From: Tetmemena sp. SeJ-2015
Lineage: Eukaryota > Ciliophora > Spirotrichea > Sporadotrichida > Oxytrichidae
Assembly (NCBI GenBank): GCA_027382625.1
Contig: JAJKFJ010022593.1
Coordinates: forward strand, 1-64,000
Direction of reading: 5' to 3'
Length of the DNA: 64,000 nucleotides
Within the stretch, counting starts at the first letter, position 1. Each line of letters starts with the position of its first letter. Shown in pieces: positions 12,839-64,000 of this stretch. The position numbers and the translations under genes are program-made. A model generated the notes under the pieces. The model had not been told where the DNA came from and searched no databases. It saw nothing but the letters and a program-made list of their open reading frames with translations.

Positions 12839-12839
12839 T

Positions 12840-16829: not shown

Positions 16830-17240
16830 TTTTAATTAAAATCGGGTATTGGTTAAAATAATAAATGGAGAGTTGCAACTTCGTGCCAATTGAAATCGCA
16901 GATTCATCCCCTGATCTGCAGCTTGTTTGATAGAGAATCAAAAATTAATAGGAGTTTCTTCTTTAATCATCTTCATAACACCTCTCAGCAGTGAGATATG
17001 ACTCATGCACTCATCTTCATCCTCATCATCATCTTCATAAAAAATTCTGTCGCTTATAATTCTTTACTGAGCCCTCCCACAAAAGTTGCAAGGATAAAAA
17101 GTTCTTAAAATTTCATGCTGAATCGAAAAGTTTAATTATTATTGGAGTTACTTCAAATGCCTCTCATTTATTCAATTTTAATTTAATATCTAATTTTATT
17201 CACTTTTTTATTAAATTCTCAGCTATATTAATTAAATTAT
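16830..17240 (+). repeat. Dispersed repeat R2, full copy
   Basis: This is the best copy of a unit of about 400 bp. Landmarks in order are: a GAGAGTTGCAACT start, GCAGATTCATCCCCTGATCTGCAG (itself a small hairpin), TTCTTTAATCATCTTCATAAC, ACTGAGCCCTCCCACAAAAG, TTGCAAGGATAAAAAG and a T-rich end. The same landmarks recur in order at 23,060 and 41,130, and inverted at 18,390 and 43,250. No ORF. Copies elsewhere sit inside IESs, so it is germline-limited. Confidence 0.65.
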
Positions 17241-18385
17241 CCTATAATTTTTAATTTGAGCATCTAATGTACTTTTGAAAAAACATAAAAAAAGCTATAG
17301 ATCTCAAAATTTAAAAAAAATTCAAGGTCTGGATCGTAACATAGTTAGAAATTAAAACTTTTCATCCTTATTTTGACAGTTAAATAATTTTTATTAAAGA
17401 ACTTTTTAACAATGTGATATGTTTTTACTTAAATTATTCAATATTTTAAAACAAGGTCAGAATTGAAATTGACGGAAGTCTTTACAAGGATATCACCATT
17501 CCTGTGAACTATGTTTCTCCTATGGAGCAATATTTAATACCAATATAATTTATAAGCTAGTTATCAGTCCTACTGTCTTTTCTCAATCAATTCTCAATAA
17601 GTTTAATTAAAAATATATTTCAATCACTTAAATAAAAAAAATACTCAAATTTAATTATTTTTATAAAATATAAAACCTCTTGGAAGTTATTTTAGGTAGG
17701 AAAAAAATGGAAGATCTTGAGTAAATAGGATTTTAAATTAGAGTTATTGTAATTAGTCTGTATATAAAAGTGCCACATAACATCAATGTATTCTGTCAAT
17801 TTCTGTTAGTGGGCTTATATTATTTTTTCTATTCTTCTAATCTCTCCAATGATATGTTGGGGATTTTTACTTTAAAATTAGCGATCATATCACAGATAAA
17901 AAGAGACTTAGAGAAGTTACGAAAGGAATGTGTTAATAGTTTAGCTCTCTGTATTTTACCTATCTTGTATGGAGTGCATCACTAATAATTCTTTAACATT
18001 TTAGGATTGGCAAGATGTACATAGGTGATGGTTACTGATATTAAGTTAGTTAGTGATGTTATTAATTTATTGAGGAATTTCACAAATAGTTCAATTTTAA
18101 TTATTAAAATCTTAATTTTATCAGGTAATCTCTGTTGAATATTAATCTTTAAATTGTTCCTTGCTTAATTGTGTTATTAATTAATGAGAAAAAAAACTTT
18201 AGGGATTTTTGCGAATTTGGGACAATTTATGTTTATATAAGTTCCCTACCTTCTTTCTATTTTCATTTGATTAATTTTAGCTTTGGTTTGGCTTTCTTAC
18301 CTTATTTGTTTTGGTAAATCATATAAATTATATATAAAGAATTTAAATTTCGTATTAATTATAACTGAGAATTTAATAAAGATAA
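17241..18385. other. AT-rich DNA with a doubtful hydrophobic ORF
   Basis: The only open frame of note is at 17,770-17,985; it is hydrophobic and shows no family features. Nothing else is supported. Confidence 0.35.
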
Positions 18386-23059: not shown

Positions 23060-23480
23060 AGTAAAAAATCATTACTATAGCAGGAATTTTAATTAAAATC
23101 GATGATTGGTTAAATTAATAAATAAATGGATAGTTGCAAAATAATGTCAGTTGAAATCGCAGATTTACCCCCCTGATCTGCAGCTTGTTCGATAGCTCAT
23201 AAAAAATTAATATAGAGTTCTTCTTTTATCATCTTCATAGGACCTCTCATTATGCGAGAAAACTCCGATGCTCCAAATATCTGCCTTTAAGAAACTTGTG
23301 TCGCTTGTCTCTCTGTGCTGCGCGCTCCCAAATAAAAGCTGCAAGGATTAGAATTCTATGCTGAATCTAATGGTTTAATAATTATTCAAATCGGAGCTAC
23401 CTCAAGTGCTGCTGATTTATTTCATTTTAATTTAATGTCTAATTTAATTCTCTTTTTTATTAAATTTCAGCTATATTAAA
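23060..23480 (+). repeat. Dispersed repeat R2, full copy
   Basis: The R2 landmarks appear in order: GGATAGTTGCAAAA, GCAGATTTACCCCCCTGATC, TTCTTTTATCATCTTCATAGG, CAAATAAAAGCTGCAAGGAT and the T-rich end. It is the closest match to the copy at 16,830. Confidence 0.65.
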
Positions 23481-41823: not shown

Positions 41824-44800
41824 TCACTTTCTAAAAATGAAAATGATCAGTTTTATTTTATTTCCACCAAACAAAGACGCCAAGAGAAATGCAGAGCAAT
41901 AAATAAATAAAAGCAATACGAACAAATGTAAGTCTAAGTCTTGCAACTAGAATGATGTGAAATGGTGGAATTGTCTATAAATAAATAATAATCTGAGTGA
42001 GTATTTGCTAGTGCCTATAGTAAGCAAATGGTTAACCCAATAGGAGAGGCTTCTTGAATCAGTTTCTTGCCATTTTATCAACTCTGAAAACTCTAAACAA
42101 TTTAATATAAATTGATAACTCTTTCAGTTACGTTTAGAAGTAGTTGTTTTACTCAATAACAATAGCTGCCTTGACAATTAAGTCTGCCCTGAATTAGGGA
42201 ATACATACCCCAACCTACTAAATATGAACAATTTCACAATTAAGAGGCTAGTCAAGCCCTTGTAACTATCTAAATTGAATTATCATAACTTGATTATAAA
42301 TTATTTGTAGTGGGCTTGAGAGAAGAGGTATGCGATTTTAGACTGATTCAAACATGCTGTTTGTTCCTCCATGGGAATAAATAATGATAATTGGGAGATG
42401 AACATCTTAATTCTATGAAAAATAAATGTAATATTCTCTAGTCTTTCATAAGAGTGGGTTGAGGGATCCATTGCTTGAAGAGGAGGTTAGGCGTTTGTTT
42501 AATTTTTGAAATGAGTTCTGGGTGAAACTTGTAGTTTTTTGAGCACAAAATGAACCCATAGCGACTTTTGTATTAGTTTTTGCCACTCTACTAATTTACT
42601 CTATCGTTACTTTAATCTTTGGAGAGCATATTAATAGCCACAAGTATTTATTCAAGCTAATATCACTCAAATATTTTCATAGCAAAAATATAGGGCTGGA
42701 ATCTTAATTAATAGTTAAATATAACAATCTAAAAAATTATTCAGTTTTGAAATATAATGATTGCCATAAAAATAATAAATGTTGACTAGGGAGAAGAAGA
42801 GTACCAAAAGATATGTAAATTACTTAAGAATGAACATCCAAGAAATCCAAAGTTTCCTCGTCAAGTTGATAAATTAAAATACAAATTTGCATTTCTTCTG
42901 CAGATAATTGTTGTTTGTACTTCGGAAATACTAAAAATTAAGAAATGTTAGATAAAATATCAATTATGTCAAGTTCTCATAAAAGATAAATTTATTTTAA
43001 CTCAATTTTTATTAAACTATAATTTTAGAAGAAAAAAAAACACTTTTCTTATAATTTTTGAATTTTAATTAGAAAAAAAGATATCTAAATCATCAAAAAT
43101 TGTTAATTATAAATAGTGTTAAGAGCTTTTAAAGAGGCATTATTATTAATTATTTACAAATATTATATAATTTGATCATTTTTAGTTTCATCTTAATGAT
43201 AAAATATTTAAAAATTATAGACAAAAATTAATTAAAAACAATCAATTATATATAAAATTAAAATTGAATAAATCAGTTGCAGTACAAGGTTGTTAGATTT
43301 TAACAATTATTACATCATTAGATTAAGAATGGAATTCTAAAAACTTTAGAACCTTGCAACTTTTGTGTTGGAGAACTCAGTCCATAGATATTAGCAGCAA
43401 AACAGTATATAGAAGTGATATTTGAACTTTAGTATAATGCGCATCAAATCTCGATACTAGATGATGCTATATTATTAAAGTAGAAACTCATATTAATTTT
43501 AATAGATATCAAACAAGCAGCAGATGAGTTGATCCTGTGATTTCAACTGACACGAAATAGCAACTATACACCTATTTATCATTTTAAAAATCACCTATAT
43601 TAATTAAATATTCTACTCTAATTGAAAGGAAATATAATCTGCTGGTTGGCTTGGAGTTGGTGGGTGTAAACAAGCCTTAAACACCATAGAAAGAGTCAAG
43701 TTAGTCTCCCTATCTTCCCAAAAGAATTAAAATAATTTTGTTATTAAAGAATGATCTCATATTTTGGGGAGCTGACTATTCAAGGTATTTCCTCAATATG
43801 TATTTGGCTGGTCCACTCCAAATGAACTGCACTGCAAAATTAGTGAACCTTACCCAAAAGCTCATAGCGTTTTCGAGCATTGTGGAATGAGATTGTTCGT
43901 AGTCCCTTTGAATAGCCTATCTGTCTGACTAGGTGATATAGGTGTAATTAGATATTTATGTACTAGACACTAAGAAATTTCTCATCCCAAACAGCCCTGA
44001 TCTTAATGCTCCGAAATTAGAAGAATGGTGTGAGTGAGCCCCAATCTCAAAAAACAAGCATGAGTCTGGTTGCACATCAAAGACTTTAATCTTAAATAAA
44101 TAATATATAGTCAATCATAGTAGGTATTTGAAGGTAGTTATTCAAGATTTTATCATTATCTTTTACATAAGAAACTTATATTAAGAGAATAGAATGAGGG
44201 GATGTTCCATGAAAGTATAAATCAAATTTCAAGTCCTTGAGAAATTAATTAATAAAATTGAGTTGCTAGAGGAGAGCCTCTGACTTGAATAACTCTTCTA
44301 CTTCCACTGAAATCATCTTGAAAATGGCTAGAGGGTTATCAACGTCAAAATAAAAATCACAAAGTCTTTGGTCATGATTTCCTCCATTAGTTTGCACTTC
44401 TCTACTGTTAATCCAATATTGGAAATATTAAAGTTATTAATTAAATTATCCAGGAATAGTAATAACTTTAATTCCATAAGTCTCAGCCTTTTCAATTAAG
44501 TGGCTTTAATAAATATAAGATCTTATTCTCTAATATGAGCATTTTATGTGAATATAATCAATTGATGGCTACTACATTTGGGGTATATTGAATAGACATC
44601 ATAGAGTCCAGTTTATGCTAGGTCCTTTGCCATGCCAAGAACCATTTTAGCATGACTAAAGAATGCGTACCCGTAAACATTAAACAAATAATTTATGATT
44701 TAAACCAATATCTTCTTTTTAGTAAGTAGATTAGTATCAGATGTGCTCTAAAGTTCAGAAGACTAATCTTAGAGCTCATTAAACTTAATAAAGCCATAAA

Positions 44801-46239: not shown

Positions 46240-47256
46240 TTTGTCCTTTTCATTTTAGAGTGCCAGAAGAAGCGGTTCTTGAAGGAGTATTTTTAATCAA
46301 TTAAAATAAAAAGGAAATGGTGATGTTTCTGACTTATTTGTTCTCAAATAAAAATACCTCGTGTGCCATTCCTGCTAGAGCCAACATTATTTAATAATTT
46401 CAGATAAAATTATAATAAACTTCAAACACTTAAAGGAGAGTTTATTTTGGATAAGAATGAGTCCAATGTAAAGTTAATAGCTCTGGATAATGAAAAAGAA
46501 GTTAAAATGGTAAAAGAACAAAGTGAGCTTGAGTCAAAAGCAAAGGCATATTTAACTCCATTTAGACTCCCATAAATGCCTTTTCAAGTCTAAAAACTAC
46601 CCAACACAAATTATAATTATATTGCAATATCAGGGCTTTTAGGAAATTTTTTTTAAGAAGTTTATTTAGAAATTTTAATTTTTTAAACTTTAAACTTTAA
46701 AAAATTTTTAAACAAAAAGAAAATGAGAAATAACCAATTCAAACTTTTGAATTTGTTTTTTAAAATTTTATTTAAATTTTCTTTATAAATAAAAATTTAT
46801 TAGTATTCTTTTGACATATAGATTTAAATATCATAATTTATAGGAGAGCCCTAGTCACTTAATAAAAATTTATATTAATTTGATATCAAACTTAATTAAC
46901 CAAATTGCTGTGCTATAGATTCCTTGTTTAATACTGCAATTTAAGCTTGGAGGCAGCTCTTGATGAGATGGAAAGAGACTATAGATTAATAATTTCTTTT
47001 ATATATCCTAATTTATTACTACAACGAAGATAAAACTTTCGTAAACTTTAAATACGATAAGTGCTTTCTAAAACCAGAAGAAGGGGGAGAGAAGTCTAAG
47101 CAAAAGGTTAAACTCGTTTATAAAAATCTTCTTGCAGCAGCTTCCTAACTGAATGACTTGTCTCTTCTTGATTATATATAAGCTATAATTAATTATATGC
47201 AAGCAAAGCTAGGACAAAAAGATTCTAAGTTCATTGAGAAATATTCACTGCTTTGA
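46240..47256 (+). CDS. 3' part of an unrecognised gene, IES-split
   Basis: Protein-like plus-strand reading with the ciliate code occurs in three blocks. These are 46,258-46,395 (VPEEAVLEGVFLINQNKKEM), 46,440-46,630 (KLIALDNEKEVKMVKEQSEL, then a Pro-rich stretch) and about 47,025-47,256 (FKYDKCFLKPEEGGEKSKQ, LDYIQAIINYMQAKLGQ), ending at UGA 47,254-47,256. AT-rich inserts lie between, notably 46,640-46,800. The start was not found. It converges on the glutamine-rich gene, with only about 195 bp between the two stops. No family is recognised. Confidence 0.5.
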
Positions 47257-47451: not shown

Positions 47452-50400
47452 TCATTCGTTATAATACTCGTCAGTTATTGAATCTTTAGATACTTCATTT
47501 ATATTCTGAAGATTCTTCAATAAACAAAAATAAATTTTACTTATTAGATTCCCTTCAAAGTTTTGGCCATAATCATCAGAGTGGCCCTGCTCTTCATTGA
47601 GTAATTAAGACTGCAATGGGTTGGAATATGTGTATTCTGGGTTCTAATTCTAATCCATGAATAGTCTCTGATCTTGAGAATAATGGCCATTAATTAAAGA
47701 CACACCTTAAATAGGTCTTTGAACTGAAATTAAGGCGTGCTGATCTTCAGGGAGATCATCATAATTAAAAGTATAAAAATAAATAGATATAAATAGTGCA
47801 AATTACTAGACTAGGATTTGCTTGCAGATTCACTTCTGACAGGAAGTCTTGATTGGATGTTAATGATTTGAAGCTGCTCTTGTTCTGATAAGTCATGATC
47901 TCTTTGCTATGAGTACTACTCATACTGCATTAATTGCTCATATTGAATCTACTAATGGAGTAAGTTGCTGTTTAGTCCTCTGATGTCTCCAAGATTGAGC
48001 TGCCAGTCCTAATTAACTTCCTCAATGACTATTTAGCCTTATAAAATTATGAAGACTTTCTTCTTCTTTGTTTTCTTTTTGCTCTAATTTACATAAAGAA
48101 TGGATTATATTAAAAATCTGATTTGGCTGCTTCTTGAACTTATTGACTCTGAACTAATTGTCTCTAAGGTATTTGAGCTACTTCTGCTCTTCCTACTACT
48201 CAATAATTTGTTAAGCTGTCCTCCTTTTGTGGGCATCTTCAGCTAATCGGAGGTGGCACTTCTGCTTCTGTTTCTTACTTATTCTCTCTATACAATTAAA
48301 TACAAAGTAAATATAATTAAGTATACTATAAATTCAAAATAACAATTATTTCATTAAGAGACTTTAAAATATTAAAATCTAGCAAATAATTAGTAGATAT
48401 TTAATACTCCTTTAAAGCTAATTAAATAAATAAATTAAAAAAGAGATAGTGTCAAAATAATGTTAATTCAATCTTAACATCGAATAAAATCTATTTGTTA
48501 TGAAACTTAAGTCATTGATTAAATTCCAAGTAATAGATATTTAATCTTATATTTTTAAGAAAGAATTTACAAAAGAACAGCATTTAAAATCACGCTACTT
48601 TCTATAGTTGGAGAAGTAATAGTAGATTGGAATATTTTCATTGGATATAAAGAATTGATTAAATTTAAATGATTAAATATAAATGATAAGTAAATATATT
48701 ACTGTTTCCAGTAGCCTGTAGATATTCAGCGTCTTCATCCTTGCGTTTGGCCTCTTGGAGCATTTCGATTGCTTGTTATCTGCTTGCCTCTTTTGTCATA
48801 AGTCTAGCGAATAAATGTCCGCATTCTTGCTTCTTAAGCTTGGAGTGACCACTCTAGGGAGTCATTAGCATTGACTGAATGTTTTAAAGACTTCTAGTTG
48901 GAGAAGTAAATAATGGACTAACATGATCAATTAAATAATAAAAATACTATAAAAAATGATTAACAAGATTTTATTCAAGGAAAGTTAACCCATTTAATAT
49001 GGGACAAATACAAATAGATGATCTGGGAAATTACTTACTTTAATTTAAGCGAGCTTGAAAATATCAAAAGTAATCCAGATTATAAGCTGAAAATAAGTTA
49101 TTTTTTTATGAAAATGAATGCCTAGCAAATAAAGGATGCATTTAACTTTATTCAAATACAAGACCAACAGAAGGAAATAGCCAGTCTTGGCTTGCCCTAC
49201 ACATACTCTGACCTGCAAGATTTCCTGAGGCCTTTGAAATATCAAAACCTTAATTTCTTGAAAATTGAAAAGCTGGCAACATAGTTGAGTGGTATTAAGG
49301 TTCCAATACATGTAAAACCTTGTCTTTTGATTCAATTTTCTAGGTGAATGAATGAGATTATGAATTTATGATCACAAATTCTTGTCAGCTTGCGTTTTCT
49401 GCTCTATAAATGTGTATTTTAAAGTCTATTTCCCAGATAATCTATTTGTATTTGTCCCATATTATTGCTTCAATTAAAGATAATCTCTCTCAGATAATAA
49501 TAAATTACCTAATTATAGCATATTTCTTTGAAAACTAATTTAGGAGTAATCCTCTTTATTATGCTTCTCTTAACTAATAATAAAGTCTGTTTTAATTTGA
49601 GATTCTGAATGCAAAAGTATGATAAAGAAATTTCATAAAAAATTTGAAAATTAAATAATTTGATTTTGATTAACTTTGTTAAGTTTTCTTTTCGATTATT
49701 TTTGCAAAACTTTAAAATTGTAAGATGATCTTGCTAATTTAATGAAGTTAAGTTAGTTCTGTCTAATTAGTTTGGCTGTTAGTTTTGTATATGGCTTTGA
49801 TAATTCTTATTAGGGGACATCTGATTGTAATTAGCATTCTTGAGAGGGGATTGAGCAGTAGTATCACCGTTTGTTTTTATATTTTGGAATGAGTGATCTC
49901 TCCTATTAGGAGAAGTTGACTTGCTTGCAATTGAGTTATGATCATGGTTGCACTTCATCTCTACCACATACTGTAATTCCTAGAAAGACTTTTCCCTTTT
50001 TTCTCGCTAACAAACATCTAACACCATTCTTCTCACAAACTTTTCCTTTCCTCTCTTAAAATTTTCATTTCTTCTCTCTGCATCCTCTTCAATATTCTTG
50101 AATTAAAATATAATTTTAAACATTTTTACATTTTAAAGTTTTTAACTATCTTCTTAGGAGATGGGTTAAAGCTAAATCATTAAATTTTTTAATATGAACT
50201 TAGATAAAAATAAAATTAAAATCTATTAAGAATCTCTATGGGAATAAATATATTCTTGGTTGCCTGCTTGCAAGTTTACTTAATTAAAGCGTACTTCTCA
50301 TAATCTTAGAGTCCTTAATAGAAGTTCATCATGGAGGATCTAAGCGGAGAAGATTATTTATCATTTAAAATTCAATTAAATAATTATATGTTTTATTGAG

Positions 50401-52858
50401 CTTTAGTTTCTGGTGATCTGAACCTATCAAGTCTATGCTCTCTATTAGACCTCTTTGTCTTTTTATTTGTAGTTTGCGCTTGAATTTAATTAGAGTGAGG
50501 ATTTTGAAGAGATTTTTTCTCTGCTGGAAGACATCTTGAGCTTGATAGCTGGTTTGATTGTATCTGGGTACCTGTGGGGACATCAACCTCATTCTGCTCT
50601 TTTAATAGTTGGGATCAAACATATACTCAAACTCATCAGCCACATCAGAGTCTTCGAAACTGCTATTGTTCGTTTGCTTAGCTGCCCTTTGGTCCTTTGT
50701 ATTAGTATTGCTCGTATATTTCCAAGCTTCCACTTCCGATGTAAGGTGCTCCTAACTTTAAATCGTCTCACCGCTGTTTAAAACCACTTCCAATCCAAAT
50801 GTCTAAATATAGATTGGAAAAATATAAATAACATTTTTAATTAATCATTTAATTAAAGATAAATAAGTGAAATGAATCGGAAGTTTGAGAAATAAGATCA
50901 GAAATGGCATTCTTAATTGATAAGTGATTAGTTTAATAGTGAAAGCAAGATAATGATTGGTTAATAATTTTAAAACCTAATATAGTTGGTTGTTTAATAA
51001 TTTATTTATATATAAAGTTAATTAATTCCAGCCTGATTGGTTTACTCTATCAGGAATCGTAATTAACCAATGGGGTGGCAAAGTTTGATTTATAATTAAT
51101 AATATTTCCTCTATTTTTTAATATTTTAAACACCCTTTTTTTTCTTTGAAACCTGAAAATGTGCTGATAGACAAGGAACTGCCTTATTATTTTAAGAAAG
51201 ATCTTATTTCTCAAACTTCCGATTCATTTCACTTATTTATCTTTAACTAATTCATTATTTCCTAATTGTTAGTTATTAAAAACGCAATTGAGGAAACTTT
51301 AGGTATGAATAGGGTCTGCAATTACACATTTTAGGGAAACATTTAACAATATTTTTCAATTCAAAGCTAAAAAAGAGTACAGCACTTAACTAAAAACCCC
51401 AATTCCATAATTAATTAATTTACTATCAATTAATTTAAGATAATTTCATAATCGAAATAAATTAAGCTTATTGCGAAATGCATTTTAGGGTCTTATTTTA
51501 ATTAAACTTTTAGGTTTTCAACTTTCAGCAAGCTTAAGTACTTTAAGCTGATTTTAAAAGTATATAGTCTAAAAAATATATAAAATGGAAGACAAGATAT
51601 TTCAAGCTGCACTCTAGCGCATTGCTTTTATTTATGAATATACTATCTCTAAAATTATTTTTTAAAACTTTAATTATTTATAGTTATGTTTATTTTATAT
51701 TAAATTCTTGCTTATAATAAGTAAATATGCTAATCTGCTTTTTTGAGCTCCTTAAACCTTTAGATTTGGAAGCAGATTCTAAACTTAAAAGCTTTGATAT
51801 TTATCTACTTTTGTCCTCTATCTATTAAATAAAAATACACAATAAAATTGCTTTTGTGAGAGTCTTTTGCTGTTTTTCTATTTCTGAGTTTGAGCCTTTT
51901 AGCTTTTTTACTATTCTGGTTGCTAGTTGAAATCTTGATTATTCTGATTGTTTGGAGCCAGAATACTGCTGGTAAACTCATCGTCAATATCAGTATTAAA
52001 ATAATTTGATAAGGATTTGAATATCTCCCTATAAGACTTGATGATTGATGTCTTCAAGAGCCTGCATATGAATTGGGGGTTAGTTCTAATCATCTGTTTC
52101 GAATCTTCTTTTTATGGGCTGCTTTTCCTTAGATTGAGATAGCTTATAAAATAAATTGAATTAGCTGATTTCCTGGAGTCTTAAGTTCAGATGATAATCC
52201 ATTAGAGAAAGAGCTTTTCCTGCCATCTTGAGAATAAAATGTATATATAATAAAGATGGTGATCTGCCTATTTTAGGTGTGATGGAGTTACTGTTGAATT
52301 GGTTTACATTTTCTACTTGAGCTTTCCTGGTAGATGGAGTGAGCTCTTGTTATCTTAAATCAGAGATTAAATAAAATGAAGAGCCTTGATAGAAGGGTTG
52401 TGTTGAAGCAGAGTAGTTGTGTGATCTGGTGTCCTGATTTTGAGATGGCTTTTAGATCAACTGTCCTGGAGTGAAGCTACTTTACTATTATTTTTGGTGT
52501 TCAGCAGCAATAAGTCTTTCATCACTCTGTTGTGGAAGAAGAGGCTAAGATTCTTATTGTAGGTTAAGTTAATAAGCAAGTTGCTGCATTTGCATTGAGT
52601 TTAGTTGTTGCTGAAGTCTCATCTCATTACAAATAATTTTATAATTTTAAATTAGAAGGAGTGAGATTTCCACTAGGAACATGCACTTGATGTAAATATA
52701 TTTTTATATTAAAAGATGGGAGCCTTGAGACTGATTTTAAGGTGTAAAGTTTGCAGATGCATAGCATTCTTCTGTGTCCTCTTGAATGTTAGTTAACCCA
52801 ACATTTGGATTAATAAATACTATAGATTGCTTTGCTTCTTAGACTGAAAGTTCATCAT
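47452..52858 (-). CDS. Glutamine-rich, coiled-coil protein of unknown function (left arm, with IESs)
   Basis: Starting near ATG 52,856-52,858, the spliced reading gives a low-complexity protein rich in Gln, Ser and Asn (RLQQQLNSMQMQQLAYQL; RSPSQDGRKSSFSNG), then MFDPNYQKSRMRLMSPQ (50,580-50,640). A basic and acidic stretch (49,780-50,095) follows, then a Lys/Glu/Arg coiled coil (GHLFARLMTKEASRQQAIEM at 48,780; CHLRLAEDAHKRRTAQQIIE at 48,200). The C-terminus ends at UGA 47,452-47,454. Gln is encoded largely by UAA/UAG, so standard ORF calling destroys the gene. At least eleven IESs interrupt it, listed separately; most were confirmed by the right arm, which lacks them. No enzyme domain is seen; a structural or scaffold role is a guess. 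It is head to head with the EF-hand gene, with about 345 bp between the starts. Confidence 0.7.
47515..47550. other. IES (36 bp), pointer AGATT
   Basis: AGATT lies at 47,510-47,514 and 47,546-47,550. Removal joins NFEGN to LQNINEVSKDS in frame on the minus strand. Confidence 0.75.
47768..47805. other. IES (38 bp), pointer AATTA
   Basis: AATTA lies at 47,763-47,767 and 47,801-47,805. Removal gives SKSQSSNYDDLPEDQHA in frame on the minus strand. Confidence 0.8.
48995..49464 (+). mobile_element. 470-bp mini-element with 37-bp inverted ends and one ORF
   Basis: The left end TAATATGGGACAAATACAAA (48,995 on, repeat to 49,031) is repeated inverted at 49,428-49,464 with one or two differences. Between them lies one ORF that almost fills the unit. 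It sits inside an IES. I do not recognise the family. A segment of a scrambled gene with chance inverted flanks is less likely, given the length of the inverted ends. Confidence 0.62.
49018..49347 (+). CDS. 109-aa ORF inside the mini-element
   Basis: With the ciliate code the frame is open from ATG (49,018-49,020, inside the left inverted repeat) to UGA (49,345-49,347). Composition is clearly protein-like, with balanced hydrophobic and charged residues: SNPDYKLKISYFFMKM, KEIASLGLPYTYSDLQDFLR, KVPIHVKPCLLIQFSR. No motif is recognised. The ATG and ORF lie within, not across, the inverted ends, which suits a mobile mini-element or a toxin-free cargo ORF of unknown role. Expression would have to occur from germline or developing macronuclear DNA before IES removal. 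Confidence 0.5.
50805..51736. other. IES (932 bp), pointer TCT, containing a smaller TIR element
   Basis: TCT lies at 50,802-50,804 and 51,734-51,736. The right arm has the flanks joined with one TCT near 62,936. On removal the minus-strand frame runs SSKKQTFGLEVVLNSGETI. The insert holds the element at 50,853-51,246. Confidence 0.85.
50853..51246. mobile_element. 394-bp miniature element with 47-bp perfect inverted repeats
   Basis: Positions 50,853-50,899 and 51,200-51,246 are perfect reverse complements (for example AATGAATCGGAAGTTTGAGA and its complement). No ORF lies between. It looks like a miniature inverted-repeat transposable element, nested in a larger IES. TTAA-like bases flank it, but a target duplication is not certain. 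Confidence 0.7.
52145..52166. other. IES (22 bp), pointer TAGCT
   Basis: TAGCT lies at 52,140-52,144 and 52,162-52,166. The right arm carries the precise junction. Confidence 0.85.
52234..52256. other. IES (23 bp), pointer AGA
   Basis: AGA lies at 52,231-52,233 and 52,254-52,256. The right arm carries the precise junction (CTTGAGATGG). Confidence 0.83.
52366..52383. other. IES (18 bp), pointer AGAG
   Basis: AGAG lies at 52,362-52,365 and 52,380-52,383. The right arm carries the precise junction. Confidence 0.83.
52630..52654. other. IES (25 bp), pointer ATTA
   Basis: ATTA lies at 52,626-52,629 and 52,651-52,654. The right arm carries the precise junction. Removal, together with the next IES, restores GNLTPSNEMRLQQQLN in frame. 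Confidence 0.87.
52693..52718. other. IES (26 bp), pointer GATG
   Basis: GATG lies at 52,689-52,692 and 52,715-52,718. The right arm carries the precise junction. Removal gives QGSHQVHVPSGN in frame. Confidence 0.87.
52812..52828. other. Candidate IES (17 bp), pointer GATT
   Basis: GATT lies at 52,808-52,811 and 52,825-52,828, and the right arm lacks the 17 bp. Unlike the others, the insert also reads as protein when kept, in frame with a different upstream reading. It may therefore be coding sequence lost from the right arm rather than an IES. Confidence 0.55.
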
Positions 52859-53126
52859 CTAATTTAGATATTTGCGCTTTTTTTAGAGTTTTATTCTAAG
52901 TGGTTGTGCTGCTTCTAATTGATATGAGGTAATTTTATTTTGTTAAAACTAAATTAAATTAATAAGATGAGATATTGAATAAATTAAAACATTTAGCACA
53001 CATCAAATCAATTTAATAGTTATAACAACAATGAATTCACACAGCGGTTAGGAAAAAAGTGAAAAGAACATTGGTTCTTCTTAGAATCTTAACTCCTCAT
53101 TTAAAATGGTGCAAGACATCGCAATT

Positions 53127-53154
53127 CTCTATTTTATTAATTATTTTAGCAATT
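53127..53154. other. IES (28 bp), pointer GCAATT
   Basis: GCAATT lies at 53,121-53,126 and 53,149-53,154. The right arm has one copy at the junction near 61,677. It lies just upstream of the likely start of the EF-hand gene. Confidence 0.83.
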
Positions 53155-53203
53155 AGGGAGAATAGTAAGCCAAAATCATTTAAGATAATTTGTAGGGGAC
53201 ATA

Positions 53204-56184
53204 ATGAGCAAAAGTGCAACCAGGCTAGGAAGTGTAATTAATGATTAACAATCATATGAGCAAAAACTCAAACTTGCTTCTCGCTCTAAAGATCTATTGA
53301 ACATCGTAAGATCTCTTTCTTTTCAAACTTAATAATTTACACTCTTATTTTTACATATAAAATTAATATTAATTGATAAGTATGTCAACTATCAAAGAAA
53401 TTTACTTTTTGAGTGACTTATATAGATTGGGAGCACCTGAACTCTTTATTACTTTTTATCATGATAATTTATTTGATCATTTCTCTGATTTAAGTTGTTG
53501 CACAATTTAAAATGTAAAGACAACAGACTTCTGCAATTCTTACATTCATTTATTATATACTTTTGTCCAACTATTGCTTTTTTAGAGGAGCTGAATTCTG
53601 ATAATTTGACTGCCCTTTACTCTAGATAATGAAATTTTTTATGTTTCATTGGATTTAAAATTTATTGACAAATAGCAAATGAATTAGTTGTAGTCGAGCA
53701 TTTCTGATCCTCCCATTACTAATTTGCATATATGTCTAGTCTAGCTCAATTAAATTAATTGTGTACTGTTAGGAGTCTATTGTTTCTTAGTGAATAATTA
53801 GCCTACAAATTAATAGAGGTCAAATTCATCATCTAGAGCAATCATGAAAACTTTGGTTGGAGGATTCAAAAATGAAAAGCAATCAACTATAGACAATCTC
53901 AAGGTTCCTCTTTTTAATAACGAAAAATGTTAATAAGAAAACTGTTACAGGCCTTAGTACAAGCTAAGGTAATTTCGTACACATTTAATGATGAATTTTA
54001 GTTAATGTAAACAGCATTTCAGCAAACTTGTAAAGCAAGCTTTAAGGAAGCACTTACGATTGCTTTATAGAGGCCCTGAAAGAGCATATGCATCCATGGA
54101 TTTTTATGGAAGAGGATACATTACTGAGGAAGATCTACTAAATCATTCAGTCCTCATGTCAAGGATCAAACCCTTTACAAAAGAAGATGTTAAAGAGTTT
54201 AGTCGCATGTTTAATCTCTTCAAAAGCAAGTCATCAAATAAAGGAGGAGCCAGCGGGATAGCTTCAGCTGAGGGCTCTAGCAGATATGTAATTGGCCAAG
54301 GCAATATGAAAAACAGCAGTACAAATATTAGTCTCACAGTTTAGCATATTTTACGATTTTAAAGAGCATACTATGCCAGTGAGTACGCCAAACAATCTAG
54401 AATAAGCAATCTCTGCTGCAGGAATGAATTTTGACTAGTTTAAGCGTATGTTCTTTCCACAGCTATTTCTAATTAATGAGGAGTAAGACTCAGAAAATGA
54501 GCGAGCTAACTAACCTAAGTTGTTAAAAATACATTTAGTGATTATCTTAATTTGGACAAGAAGATAGATATAAATCAAAAGGAAAGAAGTAGCTCAGCTA
54601 TCGAAAAAGAAGAACCTGAATCTGTCATAACAGAGAGACTTAAAAAACTAGAGAGAATTCTTAAGAATAAATTTTAAAATCAGTGGGAGTCTGTCAGAAA
54701 GGCATTTTTAGCATTAGACAGTATTTATTATTTGACACTGACTATGATGGTTACATCACTGTTGAAGACATTTTGCGCCATTTTGGTTAGGGAGAGAAGG
54801 ACTTAAATTATAACGATTTGAAGAAGCTTATAAGAGATAAAGATTCTAAGAAAATAGGAAAGATTGGTTATACAGACTTCTCTAAGTGGGTTGGCAACTC
54901 AATTCATCAGTCCGAAGGCTTTTATTTCAGGCATGATTCGGTCAAGAATCCTTAGCTTTAATTTAGTATTTAGTACGAGGCTAATATTGAGAGAAATGAA
55001 AAAAATAATAACAACATGTCTAAAAAGAAGGCTTAAGAGTCTCTAATTATAGAATAATTTTAAGTAGACTAATCATATCTAATTATGATAGATTTAAGAA
55101 TAACTAAAATTTGGAGAAGACAGTGCTTGATAAGATTTAATTTCAGTGGAAGACTCTGAGAAAGGCATTCATGGATTTGAATATGGAGAAAAGTGGGTCT
55201 ATAATGCCCGAAGAACTCAGATTTTACTTTTAGCATTGGGGTCTGAATCTTACTTTTTAATGAGAATTATTAAATTACAGATGAGCAATTCAAGTATTTG
55301 TTTGATAAGTTTGATTTGGACGGAGATGGGAAAATTAGCTACAAGGACTTTCAGTTGACAGTAGGATCTGAAATCCATCCAGCAGAAGGACTGTATTTCA
55401 GACAAGATAAACCTTAACAGATTAAGATTAATTCTTGCAAGCATGACAAGTGTTGGTATACTTTTTTCATGAATGAAAAATATACGGTAAGTTTTTAGCA
55501 ATGTTAATCAACTCTAAGATAAATAATTTTAAATGATATATTTTTAACTCAGGGCTCATAGTAATACTGCAGTCTTCATTTGAAGCTCCATCAGGATGAG
55601 TGTAGCCAGCTGTTTGGGAATTTCTTTTCTCAGCTGAAAACTTAGTGGCCTAAATTCACTGACACAATGAAAAAGTACGCAGATAAAGATGACAAGAATT
55701 AGATTTTCCTTTCTGATTTCTTGCATGTTTTGTCAAAGTTCAAGTTAGACCTGTAAAAAAAGCATCAAGAAATAACTGAATATATATGTATAGTTATTTT
55801 AAATGCTGTTAGACTCTTTCCCAGGAAGAGATGAGGGAGAGAAAAGGAGGATAAACATTTCTAAACTGTACGATCACAAATACACAATTCAGCTTTAGAA
55901 GGTGTACTAGAAAGTAGATGTGCATGATAATGATGGAGAGGATGACCCAGTTGACTAAAGTGGTTATACTGGCTAGTTCTACAGACCATAGAAAGAGCCC
56001 CTAAAAAAGATTGATGAGAGTGAGTTGGTGGCTATCATAGCAAAAAATAACAAATTGGTTCATTTTTTTAATATTTGTAATGGTTGAGGTGATCAGAACT
56101 ATTAAAGAGATCGACAAGCAGCACAATGGATTCATTACAATATAATATCTATGTTATTACAACTACCGAATTAGATGACATATT
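53204..56184 (+). CDS. EF-hand calcium-binding protein (left arm), interrupted by half TBE
   Basis: The likely start is ATG 53,204 (MSKSATRLGSVIND). After the 467-bp IES it continues with MKTLVGGFKNEKQ (53,844), then LRKHLRLLYRGPERAYASMD and YGRGYITEEDLLNHS (54,040-54,150). Clear EF-hands follow: DTDYDGYITVEDIL (54,738), DKDSKKIGKIGYTDF (54,840), NMEKSGSIMPEELRFY (55,170) and DLDGDGKISYKDF (55,315). EGFYFR and EGLYFR motifs follow the second and fourth. A further EF-hand, DKQHNGFITTTELDDIF, forms once the 22-bp IES at 56,140-56,161 is removed. Coding stops abruptly at the TBE telomere-like end at 56,185, so the 3' end of the gene is missing from this window. Tandem EF-hands suggest a Ca2+ sensor. 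No kinase domain is visible, so it is not a CDPK as seen here. Confidence 0.75.
53322..53788. other. IES (467 bp), pointer TTTCTT
   Basis: TTTCTT lies at 53,316-53,321 and 53,783-53,788. The right arm joins the flanks (near 61,530) with one copy and a few changed bases. It interrupts the N-terminal part of the EF-hand gene. Confidence 0.75.
55500..55552. other. Short IES in the EF-hand gene, present in both arms
   Basis: AT-rich, non-coding insert between the coding blocks ending WYTFFMNEKYT (55,490) and starting near 55,555 (CSLHLKLHQDECSQLF). The same insert is at 59,768-59,820 in the right arm, so it was present before the duplication. The pointer was not resolved. Confidence 0.5.
56140..56161. 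other. IES (22 bp), pointer ATTACA, shared by both arms
   Basis: ATTACA lies at 56,134-56,139 and 56,156-56,161. Removal restores an EF-hand (GFITTTELDD). The right arm keeps the same insert at about 59,156-59,177, unlike the IESs farther out. Confidence 0.87.
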
Positions 56185-56329
56185 CAAAACCCCAAAACCC
56201 CTATAATATGATAAGAAAGTTGGAATAAAATTGTGTATAAATTAATTTCTTTATTAATACTTATAATCATTCGAGTATAAATTTTAACCCTAAACAGCAA
56301 TCTAAAGTCTTCTAGGAAGGTGATCTTGA

Positions 56330-57735
56330 CGTCGGTCTCATATTCTCTGAATTTTATACCTTTAAGTGCTTCTCTATCTCAGATAACTGAGTGTTAGGTT
56401 TCATAGGTTGCTTGATTTATTACTCTCTAACTTTTTCAAAGGTTCTGATACCTTGTCTATCTTTACAATGTCTTGTTTGCGAATTATATTGCATCATCTT
56501 CACTTCACACTAGGTAGTATTCCTCTGTTTCATATCGCATTCAAGTATTATTGCAACTATAGACCAAAATGTCCCACTGCACTGAACCGTTGGCTCTTCC
56601 GATCTTCTATGGGAAGTAGCCTGCAGTTTCCTTGCACGATGCTTCCTCACATGTTTCTCCTTCTTACAACTCTGTTGGAAGTACTATGACAGTTGCTCTG
56701 ACGCGTTCAAAGTTTATCATGATGTTCTCTGGCTGAATCTCTGTGGCAGCGAATCCCAACTATTGCAACTCCATCACTCCTCTAACGAGGTTCAGTGAGA
56801 TAGCAGTAAGTAGTACTTGTTGCGCCCGTCTGAGAAAATCTCTTAGCTGTGATCTCCCATTTAGAAGGCGAATTGGCGATGTAATCATGATGATAAAGAA
56901 CACCAGCAAGATGAAGAACGTACTTCAAGTTTTGTCCCTGCTTCTCTCAACACTGTCAATTCGTTCTTGAACTCAAGATCTCTCTCTTCCTTCTTTCCAA
57001 TGTTTTCGTAAGGGAAGATCTCGTAAGCATACTCTTCTTGTATGATGGTGTCTCTTCGCTTCGCATCAGCAAGGTGGAGGTAATTTTGAACACACTCCTC
57101 CAAAGTAACAACTCTCAAGCATGGAGTCTTGCTTTGAGCTAGCTGAAAACTTACTGACACCATACACTAAGGCTTCTGATTCATTAACTCAATCTTCCTC
57201 TTCTTCCCCTCTTGCTTCCTTTTTAGTTGAACCTTGTCAAGGTATCGTGCTTGCTTCTTAGCTGGCACCATCTTTAAAGTATCTTTATCCTCAATTACGA
57301 ATCCAGCCATGTGCTTCTTCTCCATGTGTTTCTTGAGGAAAGCAGAGTGAGAGAATGTCTGCTCACAAGTTGAGCAAGGATAGCGACCGCCCACTTTCTA
57401 ATGCTTCATATAGATCTTAGGTTTGTCTGAGTGGACTTCCTTGATGTGCCGCTTGAGACTCTGAGGATATTCGAACTGTCGTTGACATTACTCGCATTAA
57501 AAAGGTTTCTTCTCCTCATTGATCTCGGGAGCAGCAACAAGAGGAGCATCAGGTGCGATAGATTTTAAACGCCCCACCGACTTTCAACTCTTAGCTTTGA
57601 CAATTTAAAACACAGAGCTCGAGCCAAGTTCAGAGAGCTCTCCCTTGCATTTAGTGCACACAGCATCTTGTTTGGTGCTGTTCCGAACATTTAGTTTTAA
57701 GCTTGTGTTGCTAAGGTTGTACTTGTCACTTAAGA
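56330..57735 (-). pseudogene. TBE zinc-finger/kinase gene, left half, decayed
   Basis: Read on the minus strand from the unique core: a possible CxxC (VCTKCKGEL, near 57,640), then two C2H2 fingers (CEQCQRQFEYPQSLKRHIKEVH at 57,425-57,500, shown by its C, C, H, H pattern, and CSTCEQTFSHSAFLKKHMEK at 57,320-57,385), then a kinase-like region (from MVSVSFQL at 57,163; ELTVLREAGTKL). At the catalytic loop this copy has FAATEIQPENIM, so His, Arg and Asp are lost. There is a frame break near 57,590 and UGAs later on, so the gene is broken. Compared with the 507-aa ORF at 1750-3273 it is the same family but distant. Confidence 0.72.
57601..57734. other. Unique core of the palindrome
   Basis: About 135 bp that is not mirrored. 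On the minus strand it continues the left half's zinc-finger gene (NVRNSTKQDAVCTKCKGEL), so it belongs to the left half; the right half is truncated at this point. It marks the joint of the inverted duplication. Confidence 0.7.
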
Positions 57736-57764
57736 GTTGAGAAGTCGGTGGGGTTTAAACTATC

Positions 57765-59000
57765 GCACCTGAATGCTCCTCTTGTTGCTGCCCCAGAGTC
57801 AATGAGGAGAAGAAACCTTTTTAATGCGAGTAATGTCAACGACAGTTCGGATATCCTCAGAGCTCAAGCGGCACATTAAGGAAGTCCACTCAGACAAACC
57901 ATAAGATCTATATGAAGCATTTGAAAGTGGACGGTCGTATCCTTGCTCAACTTGGGAGCAGACATTCTCTCACTCTGCTTTCTCAAGAAACACATGGAGA
58001 AGAAGCACATGGCCTGAGTTCGTATTTGAGGGATAAAGAAAACTTTAAAGATGGTGCCAGCTAAGAGGCAAGAACGATACTTTGACAAGGTTCAACTAAA
58101 GAGGCAGCCTCAAGGAGGAGAAGAAAGAGAAGATTGAGTTCATGAATCAGAAGCCTTTAGTGTATTGGTGTCAGTAAAGTTTCAGCTAGGCTCAAAGCAA
58201 GACTCCATGCTTGAGAGTTGTAACTTTGGAGGAGTGTGTTTCAAAATTAACCTCCACCTTGCTGATGCGAGCGAAGAGACACCATCATACAGGAAAAGTA
58301 TGCTTAGAAGATCTTCCCTTACGAATACCTTGTTAAGAAGGAAGAGAGAGGTCTTGAGTTCGCGAACGAACTGACAGTGTTGAGAGAAGCGAGGGACAAA
58401 AACTTGAGTTAGTACGTTCTTCATCTTGCTGGTGGGCGTTCTTATCGATCATGATTACATCGCCATTCGCCTTCCTAAATGAAAGATCACACTAAGAGAA
58501 TTCTCAGCACGAGGCGCAACAAGAACTAGCTACTGCTATTCTCACTGACCTCGTTAGAGGAGTGATGGAGTTGCATGAGTTGGGATTCGTGCACAGAGAT
58601 CTCAAGCCAGAGAACATCATGATAAATTTTGAACCAGTCAGAGCAACTGTCATAGACTTCAACAGATTTTAAGAAGAGAAAACATTGAGGAAGCATCGGT
58701 GCAAGGAACTGCAGGCTACTTCCCATAAAGACAGACTTGGCTCAACGGTTTCAGTGCAGTGAGACATTTTCTATAGTTGCAATAATACTTGAATGCGATA
58801 TGAAAACCAGGGAATACTACTAGTGTGAAAGTGAAGATGATGCAATAAAATTCGCAACAAGACATGGTAAGATAGACAAGGTATCAGAACTTTGAAAAAG
58901 TAAAGTAGTAAATCAAGCAACCTATGAACCTAACACTCAGTTATCTGAATAAGGAAAGCACTTAAAGTATTAAATCAGAGAGATATAACAGACTCAAGAT
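57765..59000 (+). pseudogene. TBE zinc-finger/kinase gene, right half, decayed
   Basis: This is the mirror copy of the left-half gene, on the plus strand, with many one-base insertions and deletions (for example near 57,960, 58,070, 58,250 and 58,300) that break the frame. The kinase catalytic loop is intact here: FVHRDLKPENIMINFE at 58,588-58,640, followed by VIDFN, as in active kinases (DFN replacing DFG). The indel density is much higher than in the adjacent EF-hand arm. Confidence 0.72.
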
Positions 59001-59132
59001 CACCTTCTAGAACGATTAGATTTGCCTGTTTAGGAGTTAAAATTTATCATGATTTATAAGTATTAATAAAGAAATTAATTATACCAATTTATTTTTAACT
59101 TTCTTATCATATTATGGGGTTTTGGGGTTTTG

Positions 59133-61626
59133 AATATGTCATCTAATTCGGTAGTTGTAATAACATAGATATTATATTGTAATGAATCCATTGTGCTGCT
59201 TGTCGATCTCTTTAATAGTTCTTATCACCTCAACCATTACAAATATTTAGAAATAAATGAACCAATTTGTTATTTTTTGCTATGATAGCCACCAACTCGC
59301 TCTCATCAATCTTTTTGAGGGGCTCTTTCTATGGTCTGTAGAACTAGCCAGTATAGCCACTTTAGTCAACTGGATCATCCTCTCCATCATTATCATGCAC
59401 ATCTACTTTCTAGTACACCTTCTAAAGCTGAATTGTGTATTTGTGATCGTACAGTTTAGAAATGTTTATCCTCCTTTTCTCTCCCTCATCTCTTCCTGGG
59501 AAAGAGTCTAACAGCATTTAAAATAACTATATATAGATTCAGTTATTTCTTGATGCTTTTTTTACAGGTCTAACTTGAACTTTGACAAAACATGCAAGAA
59601 ATCAGAAAGGAAAATCTAATTTTTGTCATCTTTATCTGCATACTTTTTCATTGTGTCAGTGAATTTAGGCCACTAAGTTTTCAGCTGAGAAAAGAAATTC
59701 CCAAACAGCTGGCTACACTCATCCTGATGGAGCTTCAAATGAAGACTGCAGTATTACTATGAGCCCTGAGTTAAAAATATATCATTTAAAATTATTTATC
59801 TTAGAGTTGATTAACATTGCTAAAAACTTACCGTATATTTTTCATTCATGAAAAAAGTATACCAACACTTGTCATGCTTGCAAGAATTAATCTTAATCTG
59901 TTAAGGTTTATCTTGTCTGAAATACAGTCCTTCTGCTGGATGGATTTCAGATCCTACTGTCAACTGAAAGTCCTTGTAGCTAATTTTCCCATCTCCGTCC
60001 AAATCAAACTTATCAAACAAATACTTGAATTGCTCATCTGTAATTTAATAATTCTCATTAAAAAGTAAGATTCAGACCCCAATGCTAAAAGTAAAATCTG
60101 AGTTCTTCGGGCATTATAGACCCACTTTTCTCCATATTCAAATCCATGAATGCCTTTCTCAGAGTCTTCCACTGAAATTGAATCTTATCAAGCACTGTCT
60201 TCTCCAAATTTTAGTTATTCTTAAATCTATCATAATTAGATTTGATTAGTCTACTTAAAATTATTCTATAATTAGAGACTCTTAAGCCTTCTTTTTAGAC
60301 ATGTTGTTATTATTTTTTTCATTTCTCTCAATATTAGCCTCGTACTAAATACTAAATTAAAGCTAAGGATTCTTGACCGAATCATGCCTGAAATAAAAGC
60401 CTTCGGACTGATGAATTGAGTTGCCAACCCACTTAGAGAAGTCTGTATAACCAATCTTTCCTATTTTCTTAGAATCTTTATCTCTTATAAGCTTCTTCAA
60501 ATCGTTATAATTTAAGTCCTTCTCTCCCTAACCAAAATGGCGCAAAATGTCTTCAACAGTGATGTAACCATCATAGTCAGTGTCAAATAATAAATACTGT
60601 CTAATGCTAAAAATGCCTTTCTGACAGACTCCCACTGATTTTAAAATTTATTCTTAAGAATTCTCTCTAGTTTTTTAAGTCTCTCTGTTATGACAGATTC
60701 AGGTTCTTCTTTTTCGATAGCTGAGCTACTTCTTTCCTTTTGATTTATATCTATCTTCTTGTCCAAATTAAGATAATCACTAAATGTATTTTTAACAACT
60801 TAGGTTAGTTAGCTCGCTCATTTTCTGAGTCTTACTCCTCATTAATTAGAAATAGCTGTGGAAAGAACATACGCTTAAACTAGTCAAAATTCATTCCTGC
60901 AGCAGAGATTGCTTATTCTAGATTGTTTGGCGTACTCACTGGCATAGTATGCTCTTTAAAATCGTAAAATATGCTAAACTGTGAGACTAATATTTGTACT
61001 GCTGTTTTTCATATTGCCTTGGCCAATTACATATCTGCTAGAGCCCTCAGCTGAAGCTATCCCGCTGGCTCCTCCTTTATTTGATGACTTGCTTTTGAAG
61101 AGATTAAACATGCGACTAAACTCTTTAACATCTTCTTTTGTAAAGGGTTTGATCCTTGACATGAGGACTGAATGATTTAGTAGATCTTCCTCAGTAATGT
61201 ATCCTCTTCCATAAAAATCCATGGATGCATATGCTCTTTCAGGGCCTCTATAAAGCAATCGTAAGTGCTTCCTTAAAGCTTGCTTTACAAGTTTGCTGAA
61301 ATGCTGTTTACATTAACTAAAATTCATCATTAAATGTGTACGAAATTACCTTAGCTTGTACTAAGGCCTGTAACAGTTTTCTTATTAACATTTTTCGTTA
61401 TTAAGAAAGTAGGAACCTTTAGATTGTCTATAGTTGATTGCTTTTCATTTTTAATCCTCAAAAATTTTCATGATTGCTCTAAATAATTTACTCTATTAAT
61501 TTGTACAATTATTGCTTAAGAAGAAAGAGATCTTACGACCTTCATTAATTTGTAGAGCTAGATTAGCAATTTGATGTCATATGATTGTAATCATTAATTA
61601 ACTTCCTAGCCTGTTCATTTGCTCAT
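59133..61626 (-). CDS. EF-hand protein (right arm copy), truncated by half TBE
   Basis: This is the mirror of 53,204-56,184. The block 59,960-61,258 is essentially identical to the left copy, including EF-hands (DLDGDGKISYKDF near 60,000; DTDYDGYITVEDIL near 60,570). The likely ATG is at 61,624-61,626. The N-terminal part (61,400-61,626) is diverged and lacks the 467-bp and 28-bp IESs of the left copy, while inner IESs (for example 59,156-59,177) are kept. The 3' end is cut at 59,133 by the TBE tip. Whether it could ever be expressed is unclear. Confidence 0.7.
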
Positions 61627-61943
61627 TATGTCCCCTACAAATTATCTTAAATGATTTTGGCTTACTATTCTCCCTAATTGCGATGATCTTGCACCATTTT
61701 AAATGAGGAGTTAAATTCTAAGAAGAACCAATGTTCTTTTCACTTTTTTCCTAACCGCTGTGTGAATTCATTGTTGTTATAACTATTAAATTGATTTGAT
61801 GTGTGCTAAATGTTTTAATTTATTCAATATCTCATCTTATTAATTTAATTTAGTTTTAACAAAATAAAATTACCTCATATCAATTAGAAGCAGCACAACC
61901 ACTTAGAATAAAACTCTAAAAAAAGCGCAAATATCTAAATTAG

Positions 61944-64000
61944 ATGATGAACTTTCAGTCTAAGAAGCAAAGCAATCCAAATGTTGGGTTAACTAACATT
62001 CAAGAGGACACAGAAGAATGCTATGCATCTGCAAACTTTACACCTTAAAATCAGTCTCAAGGCTCCCATCAAGTGCATGTTCCTAGTGGAAATCTCACTC
62101 CTTCTAATGAGATGAGACTTCAGCAACAACTAAACTCAATGCAAATGCAGCAACTTGCTTATTAACTGAACCTACAATAAGAATCTCAGCCTCTTCTTCC
62201 TCTACAGAGTGATGAAAGACTTATTGCTGCTGAACACCAAAAATAAAAGTAAAGTAGCTTCACTCCAGGACAGTTGATCTAAAAGCCATCTCAAAATCAG
62301 GACACCAGATCACACAACTACTCTGCTTCAACACAACCCTTCTATCAAGGCTCTGATTTAAGATAACAAGAGCTCACTCCATCTACCAGGAAAGCTCAAG
62401 TAGAAAATGTAAACCAATTCAACAGTAACTCCATCACACCTAAAATAGGCAGATCACCATCTCAAGATGGCAGGAAAAGCTCTTTCTCTAATGGATTATC
62501 ATCTGAACTTAAGACTCCAGGAAATCAGCTATCTCAATCTAAGGAAAAGCAGCCCATAAAAAGAAGATTCGAAACAGATGATTAGAACTAACCCCCAATT
62601 CATATGCAGGCTCTTGAAGACATCAATCATCAAGTCTTATAGGGAGATATTCAAATCCTTTTCAAATAAATTTAATACAGATATTGACGATGAATTTTCC
62701 AGCAGCGTTCTGGTTCCGAACAATCAGAATAATCAAGATATCAACTAGCAACCAGAATAGTAAAAAAGCTAAAAGGCTGAAACTCTGAAATAGAAAAACA
62801 GCAAAAGACTCTCGCAAAAGCAATTTTATTGTATATTTTTATTTAATAGATAGAGGACAAAAGTAGATAAATATCAAGCTTTTAAGTTTAGAATCTGCTT
62901 CCAAATCTAAAGGTTTAAGGAGCTCAAAAAAGCAGACATTTGGATTGGAAGTGGTTTTAAACAGCGGTGAGACGATTTAAAGTTAGGAGCACCTTACATC
63001 GGAAGTGGAAGCTTGGAAATATACGAGCAATACTAATACAAAGGACCAAAGGGCAGCTAAGCAAACGAACAATAGCAGTTTCGAAGACTCTGATGTGGCT
63101 GATGAGTTTGAGTATATGTTTGATCCCAACTATTAAAAGAGCAGAATGAGGTTGATGTCCCCACAGGTACCCAGATACAATCAAACCAGCTATCAAGCTC
63201 AAGATGTCTTCCAGCAGAGAAAAACATCTCTTCAAAATCCTCACTCTAATTAAATTCAAGCGCAAACTACAAATAAAAAGACAAAGAGGTCTAATAGAGA
63301 GCATAGACTTGATAGGTTCAGATCACCAGAAACTAAAGCTCAATAAAACATATAATTATTTAATTGAATTTTAAATGATAAATAATCTTCTCCGCTTAGA
63401 TCCTCCATGATGAACTTCTATTAAGGACTCTAAGATTATGAGAAGTACGCTTTAATTAAGTAAACTTGCAAGCAGGCAACCAAGAATATATTTAAGATCC
63501 CATAGAGATTAATAGAAATTATTTTTATAAGTAAATTAAAAATTGTGAAGAAAATGTCTTGAGATAGTTGTAACGAAAAAATGTGAAAAGTTTTCTAAGA
63601 ATTACAAGAATATTGTAGAGATGAAGTGCAAGCCATGATCAAACTCAATTGCAAGGCAAGGCAAACTTCTCCTAATAGGAGAGATCACTCATTCCAAAAT
63701 ATAAAAACGGGAAACTACTGCTCAATCCCCTCTCAAGAATGCTAATTACTTTCAGATGTCCCAATCAAGAATTATCAAAGCTCATATTACAAAACTACAG
63801 CCAAACTAATTAGACAAAACTAACTTAACTTCATTCAATTAGCAAGTCATGTTAGTCAATTATTATCTAACTTAAAGTTTTAAAACATTACAGTCAATGC
63901 TAATGATCTACCCTAGAGTTTTCATCGAATGCTTAAGATAAGCTAACAAATGCGGACACTTGTTATTAGACTTATGACAAAAGAGGCAAGTAGATACAAA
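61944..64000 (+). pseudogene. Glutamine-rich gene copy without IESs (right arm), partly decayed
   Basis: From ATG 61,944 (MMNFQSKKQSNPNVG) the plus strand reads directly, without any IES, through the Gln-rich part (to about 62,600) and MFDPNYQKSRMRLMSP (63,118 on). The left-arm gene reads only after its IESs are removed. Beyond about 63,500 many small indels break the frame, compared with the left copy at 49,780-50,100. The copy continues past the window end. One shared frame change near 62,640 (also in the left arm, about 52,030) points to a further short intron or IES common to both. The IES-free state is what macronuclear DNA would look like. Confidence 0.65.

Follow-up and report, generated by a model that had tools for sequence, protein, structure and literature searches.

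We find that contig JAJKFJ010022593.1 of the ciliate Tetmemena sp. SeJ-2015 (assembly GCA_027382625.1) ends in a long inverted duplication, one arm of which carries internal eliminated sequences (IESs) that the other arm lacks. The window analyzed here comprises the first 64,000 bases of this contig, which is 64,945 bases long. The structure is very probably a chimera formed where a hybrid long-read contig terminates, and not an arrangement of the germline genome. We favor a chimera because independent noise flanks the fold and adjoins the point at which the right arm switches form, because the right arm is frameshifted, because the duplication stops at the contig end, and because the hybrid assembly pipeline was run on mixed DNA. 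An earlier note on this DNA had offered two readings, that processed DNA was copied back into the germline or that the assembly joined macronuclear-derived and germline reads; on the same grounds the assembly join is much better supported, and copying back is very improbable.

The inverted repeat runs from 57,593 down to 47,313 in the left arm (minus strand; 10,281 bp, in germline form with IESs) and reappears from 57,731 up to the last contig base, 64,945, in the right arm (plus strand; 7,215 bp overall, with 57,731-64,000 inside the window). The duplication placed at 48,770-64,000 by the earlier note is therefore real and larger. Between the arms lies a 137-bp loop (57,594-57,730, plus strand) of telomere-bearing element (TBE) sequence, which extends the left arm before switching abruptly to the inverted strand. 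For Tetmemena, the germline assembly in the literature is a hybrid draft of 237 Mbp in 28,446 contigs built from PacBio and Illumina data (PMC9797194), and the 146 Mb in 5,213 contigs that we searched may be a subset or another version of it. A search of 29 TBE loci gave 18 alignments that reach the fold point; these represent other loci, not further reads of the same locus, some share one contig, and alignments stopping short of the fold point were left out. All 18 proceed without folding, and by eye 14 stay in similar TBE sequence past this point and four enter other sequence. A natural TBE palindrome was rejected, since none of the 18 folds at 57,594-57,730. The contig thus has an inverted second copy within about 200 bp, after a loop of 137 bp, that is absent from the other copies there, as expected of a fold-back.

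The arms differ most plainly in their inserts. In the final arm-to-arm alignment, 23 gaps of at least 12 bp mark sequence present only on the left, and no gap of that size marks sequence present only on the right. All 23 lie at or beyond about 61,505 in right-arm coordinates. Borders are placeable for 13 of them, all on the minus strand of the left arm: 28 bp (53,127-53,154, pointer AATTGC), 17 bp (52,812-52,828, AATC), 26 bp (52,693-52,718, CATC), 25 bp (52,630-52,654, TAAT), 18 bp (52,366-52,383, CTCT), 23 bp (52,234-52,256, TCT), 22 bp (52,145-52,166, AGCTA), 932 bp (50,805-51,736, AGA), 383 bp (48,316-48,698, direct repeat TATATTTACTT), 34 bp (48,091-48,124, AAAT), 18 bp (48,041-48,058, AAG), 38 bp (47,768-47,805, TAATT) and 36 bp (47,516-47,551, GAATCT). 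Every one of the 13 has a direct repeat (pointer) of 3-11 bp at its borders, of which the right arm keeps a single copy. Random inserts, their lengths sampled from the full set of 23 gaps, showed a repeat of at least 3 bp in 8.1% of 20,000 draws. The remaining ten gaps cluster at three noisy sites (61,505-61,516, 63,546-63,560 and 63,850-63,879), with repeats of 0-1 bp and unplaceable borders. Two placeable inserts also touch the noisy patches described below, the 28-bp insert within the quieter edge of the first and the 383-bp insert at the edge of the second. The earlier note had counted at least ten inserts of 17-932 bp, missing from a right arm that nearly always retains one pointer copy; this holds for all 13 placeable inserts, with three further sites blurred, and the repeats span 3-11 bp where the note gave 3-6 bp.

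Judged by these borders, the left-arm inserts are ordinary conventional (non-scrambled) IESs. They share with conventional hypotrich IESs an AT-rich composition, border repeats of 3-11 bp and the retention of one copy after removal; the inserts themselves are unremarkable, and unusual only is the presence of both forms within one contig. Reading frames are a weak test here and give a mixed picture, leaning towards IESs for the downstream inserts and lending the upstream ones no support. For the five downstream inserts, the longest open frame is 296 amino acids (aa) when they are excised and 277 aa when they are not, against a 95th percentile of 274 aa and a maximum of 331 aa in 2,000 random removals. 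For the eight upstream inserts the unexcised frame is the longer one (293 aa excised versus 348 aa unexcised; random median 253 aa, maximum 584 aa).

The 932-bp IES is itself composite. It holds a nested repeat of about 392 bp (50,854-51,245) with terminal inverted repeats of about 46 bp. Among the matches listed (40 of 301 candidates scored), copies on other contigs cover almost the whole of this repeat and are 72-97% identical to it. Another contig (C3079) has a related stretch without the 392-bp repeat, and there query positions 4-46 and 438-924 lie only 2 bp apart. Because this relative lacks it, the 392-bp repeat resembles a small transposon inserted into a repeat of greater age.

Ciliates gain IESs over evolutionary time, and the two arms could in principle descend from an old germline duplication whose left arm later acquired its inserts. 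That history would require the left arm to have gained inserts independently at least 13 times and the right arm never, with long blocks of the two arms near-identical; it is not credible, and we regard it as the least probable of the explanations considered.

The right arm is not IES-free throughout: it mixes a germline-type stretch, containing a TBE and an EF-hand gene, with a processed-type stretch containing what we call gene 2. The TBE end, which carries the 57-kD zinc-finger/kinase open reading frame, occupies 56,180-57,593 in the left arm (minus strand) and 57,731-59,140 in the right arm (plus strand), where it ends in a Tetmemena-type terminal repeat. Pfam searches matched zf-C2H2 in the left piece (5e-9) and Pkinase in the right piece (2.6e-10). 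The published form of the Tetmemena TBE terminal repeat is 85 bp long (PMC4724952), and it is identical to the arms in 80 of 87 and 81 of 86 aligned columns; four other published TBE terminal repeats gave weak matches or short cores only, in a comparison that did not include the other TBE2 rows of the published table. Among the matches listed (40 of 1,107 candidates scored), the 85-bp repeat is 100% identical at 40 of 41 genome places, and 17 of them lie within 217 bp of a contig start. The element thus shares its terminal repeat and its zinc-finger and kinase domains with the published Tetmemena type (PMC4724952), and differs in that the arms hold the 57-kD end only, the fold cutting the element.

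Adjoining the TBE is the EF-hand gene, at 53,844-56,150 in the left arm (plus strand) and, still in germline form, at 59,141-61,403 in the right arm (minus strand). The left-arm piece has an EF-hand_7 match (1.3e-8 in Pfam), GT-AG introns and two IES candidates, and by eye the last frame that can be read in it closes right ahead of the TBE. The right-arm piece keeps the candidates and differs from the left by 11 substitutions and two small indels. The first candidate is a 17-bp unit with the repeat GACA in both arms (left 54,717, right 60,581), and by eye its removal restores an EF loop; the second is a 25-bp unit with TGGTT (left 56,056), present in the right arm as a 28-bp variant. Several further interruptions of this gene resemble GT-AG introns by eye. 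We rejected the view that introns alone interrupt the block, as the 17-bp GACA unit has neither a GT start nor an AG end and its excision restores the loop. The earlier note's observation that an IES-free stretch is joined to unprocessed DNA with a TBE and kept IESs therefore stands, in the form of the TBE end and these two candidates.

Divergence between the arms alternates sharply along their length. Arm against arm, we counted 97 edits/kb in the TBE, 5.7 in the EF-hand block (2.26 kb), 95.5 at 61,404-61,717, 12.4 at 61,718-63,494, 113 at 63,495-64,067 and 9.1 at 64,068-64,945. The first noise patch beyond the EF-hand block (61,404-61,717, plus strand) has 22 indels and eight substitutions among its short edits, includes the first missing insert (61,505-61,516), begins about 100 bp ahead of that insert, and disrupts the N-terminal EF-hand frame that is open on the left arm. 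The second (63,495-64,067, plus strand, running past the window end at 64,000) has 42 indels and 23 substitutions, with frameshifts where the left arm is open. In the TBE, direct alignment of the arms gives 84 indels and 53 substitutions. Measured as private differences, the right and left arms carry 70.4 and 84.3 per kb; the 29 other TBE copies range from 0 to 44.3 with a median of 12.9 (four of the 29 have no private states, and two, L027 and L040, are overlapping loci of one contig). The arms are thus at 5.5 and 6.5 times the median. Only three private states are common to both arms and absent from the 29 others, so each arm carries its own dense changes, next to a 2.26-kb block at 5.7 edits/kb. 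We infer that the dense patches are uncorrected long-read error at very low depth.

The quieter blocks differ in another way. Block A of gene 2 (61,718-63,494, plus strand), from which seven left-arm inserts are absent, has 20 substitutions and two single-base indels; the last block (64,068-64,945) has three substitutions and five single-base indels. In two stretches of block A, 19 codons are changed, eight of them synonymously in the frame assumed to be coding: five substitutions in one stretch give three synonymous codons and two that are not, and 15 in the other give five and nine. These substitutions are unlike read error and probably represent haplotype differences. The coding parts of the left arm are not copied exactly in the right arm, and since two quieter blocks, the EF-hand block and block A, differ mainly by substitutions, the right arm is not simply the left-arm molecule read again. 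Three more single-base indels, at 64,384, 64,436 and 64,517, shift gene 2, which we treated as one gene by assumption and whose protein has no homologues at E ≤ 0.001.

The gene 2 stop codon, TGA at 64,804, lies 139 bp ahead of the contig end. In the left arm, an open frame convergent with gene 2 (46,333-47,256, 307 aa, no Pfam match at E ≤ 0.01) has its stop 57 bp beyond the point corresponding to the right-arm end, which makes a chromosome boundary near that point plausible. Genome searches with part of block A listed only the two arms, as did searches with other arm parts, one of which added TBE copies (40 of 1,860 candidates scored).

These features bear directly on whether a processed copy of gene 2, somatic or template-derived, was inserted into the germline beside an inverted EF-hand gene and TBE. 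The exact loss of all 13 placeable inserts with one repeat copy kept, and the occurrence of a TBE and kept IES candidates within the same arm, are what such an insertion would produce. Against it stand the frameshifting indels in coding parts and the error-like patches beside near-identical blocks. Processed DNA lodged in the germline should moreover have germline flank on both sides, and here copy and contig both stop at 64,945, so that none lies beyond. Nothing favors such a transfer that a chimera does not explain as well, and we give it very little credence. A narrow look at the literature gave no account of a ciliate in which somatic DNA was reinserted into the germline; a true instance would directly document the entry of edited somatic DNA.

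A chimera could have arisen as follows. The germline contig, representing haplotype A with its IESs, would run out inside the many-copy TBE. The path would then turn back after the 137-bp loop, either through a long read that folds back or through a mistaken overlap of TBE reads, and the same locus would be appended again in reverse, at first in the germline form of the other haplotype. At about 61,404, in the first exon of the EF-hand gene, the layout or the read would switch to an IES-free somatic (macronuclear) copy of the neighboring gene, and the path would follow this gene 2 copy to its end. The IES-free part is accordingly best seen as probably macronuclear, and presumably no intact molecule carries the assembled structure. 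Two simpler artefacts were rejected. The arms are not just opposite strands of a single, otherwise sound molecule, because they differ in IES state and in haplotype-like substitutions; one fold-back read is therefore insufficient, and either a further join or a molecule of mixed state must be involved. Nor did polishing delete the IESs, since inserts of several hundred bp are also missing at noisy, apparently uncorrected sites; the underlying read, rather than polishing, probably lacked them.

In the published pipeline, PacBio reads corrected with FMLRC were assembled with wtdbg2, the result was polished with Pilon, and quickmerge combined it with an Illumina assembly (PMC9797194). The same work dropped reads that had a telomere at either end or fitted the macronuclear genome better (PMC9797194). 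This filter makes a pure macronuclear read less likely as the source, and a mixed read, made in the library or derived from a developing nucleus, deserves consideration. In the latter case the right arm would be a real, partly processed molecule of a developing macronucleus, with gene 2 already IES-free and the EF-hand gene and TBE still unprocessed, and the fold alone would be artefactual. Such molecules occur in Stylonychia and Oxytricha, and one survey detected no specific order of conventional IES removal (PMC2394655). A molecule of this kind would account for a mixed-state read passing the filter, and this contig has no telomere pattern between the EF-hand part and gene 2 (a telomere-repeat search gave 18 overlapping matches on three contigs elsewhere and none here). 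It fits less well with a DNA source described as a vegetative culture of a clonal strain, for which the sections on assembly mention no developmental sample (PMC9797194). The right arm also ends only 139 bp after a stop codon, which would suit a finished chromosome, and the noise begins at 61,404, about 100 bp ahead of the first missing insert. We consider a developing-nucleus molecule unlikely, if less so than a germline insertion.

Several observations weigh against a chimeric contig end. The published filter should have caught a plain macronuclear read (PMC9797194), and a 2026 study saw no systemic foldbacks in three PacBio data sets (PMC12870357). The core of the SMRTbell adapter is absent from the contig at up to two mismatches (four places elsewhere in the genome match, each with two mismatches). 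Borders are clean at the 932-bp and the short missing IESs, and the IES-free form may therefore be backed by several sources of data at these sites. The 29 TBE copies used for comparison are among the best-scoring and may be less divergent than the average copy. The many-copy TBE alignment gives mostly substitutions (56 of 100 in the right arm, 93 of 120 in the left), so that the dominant kind of difference varies with the alignment used. The end of the contig adds little on the other side: its final base is G, where the left-arm counterpart is A, and this is one base and weak evidence. A G4T4 telomere starts with G. Recurrence of such folds was not established from the few contig ends surveyed (six contig starts at 8 kb each, contig C3078 and the search-hit loci). 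The six starts had as their sole inverted feature a local self-inverted stretch of 444 bp (L045).

In contig C3078 (16,093 bp; L050/L051), TBE copies lie in both inverted and direct order: the stretch 6,121-14,279 forms an inverted repeat with itself (93%), and 14,274-16,083 matches 7,905-6,087 inverted (94%). We rejected it as a second such fold, since these copies share no unique flanks.

Elsewhere in the window we noted two further repeats. At 1,750-3,273 a 507-aa open frame in the ciliate code has weak kinase (0.0089) and C2H2 (0.039) matches below the curated cut-offs, and may be distantly related to the TBE 57-kD gene; the DNA at 2,001-3,353 is repeated on other contigs at up to 99% identity among the matches listed (40 of 66 candidates scored). 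A second family, of up to about 420 bp and in both orientations, occurs at 16,817-17,241, 23,072-23,479, 43,206-43,622, 38,887-39,088 and 31,175-31,380, and its listed pairs are 68-80% alike.

Two further known systems come close to this contig end. In long-read fold-back (palindromic) artefacts the second segment lies on the opposite strand at nearly the same place (PMC12870357; PMC6218980), within 200 bp in the first of these studies. Our contig has this arrangement, with independent noise in each arm and other TBE copies that do not fold, and it differs from the artefacts described in PMC12870357 in that its arms also diverge in IES state and in haplotype-like substitutions. With partly processed developing molecules (PMC2394655) it shares a stretch in which IESs are removed in one part and kept in another; unlike them, it is inverted, noisy, and stops where a chromosome end is plausible. 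An inexpensive way to check the quality of hybrid germline assemblies would be to screen contig ends for inverted copies that differ in IES state.

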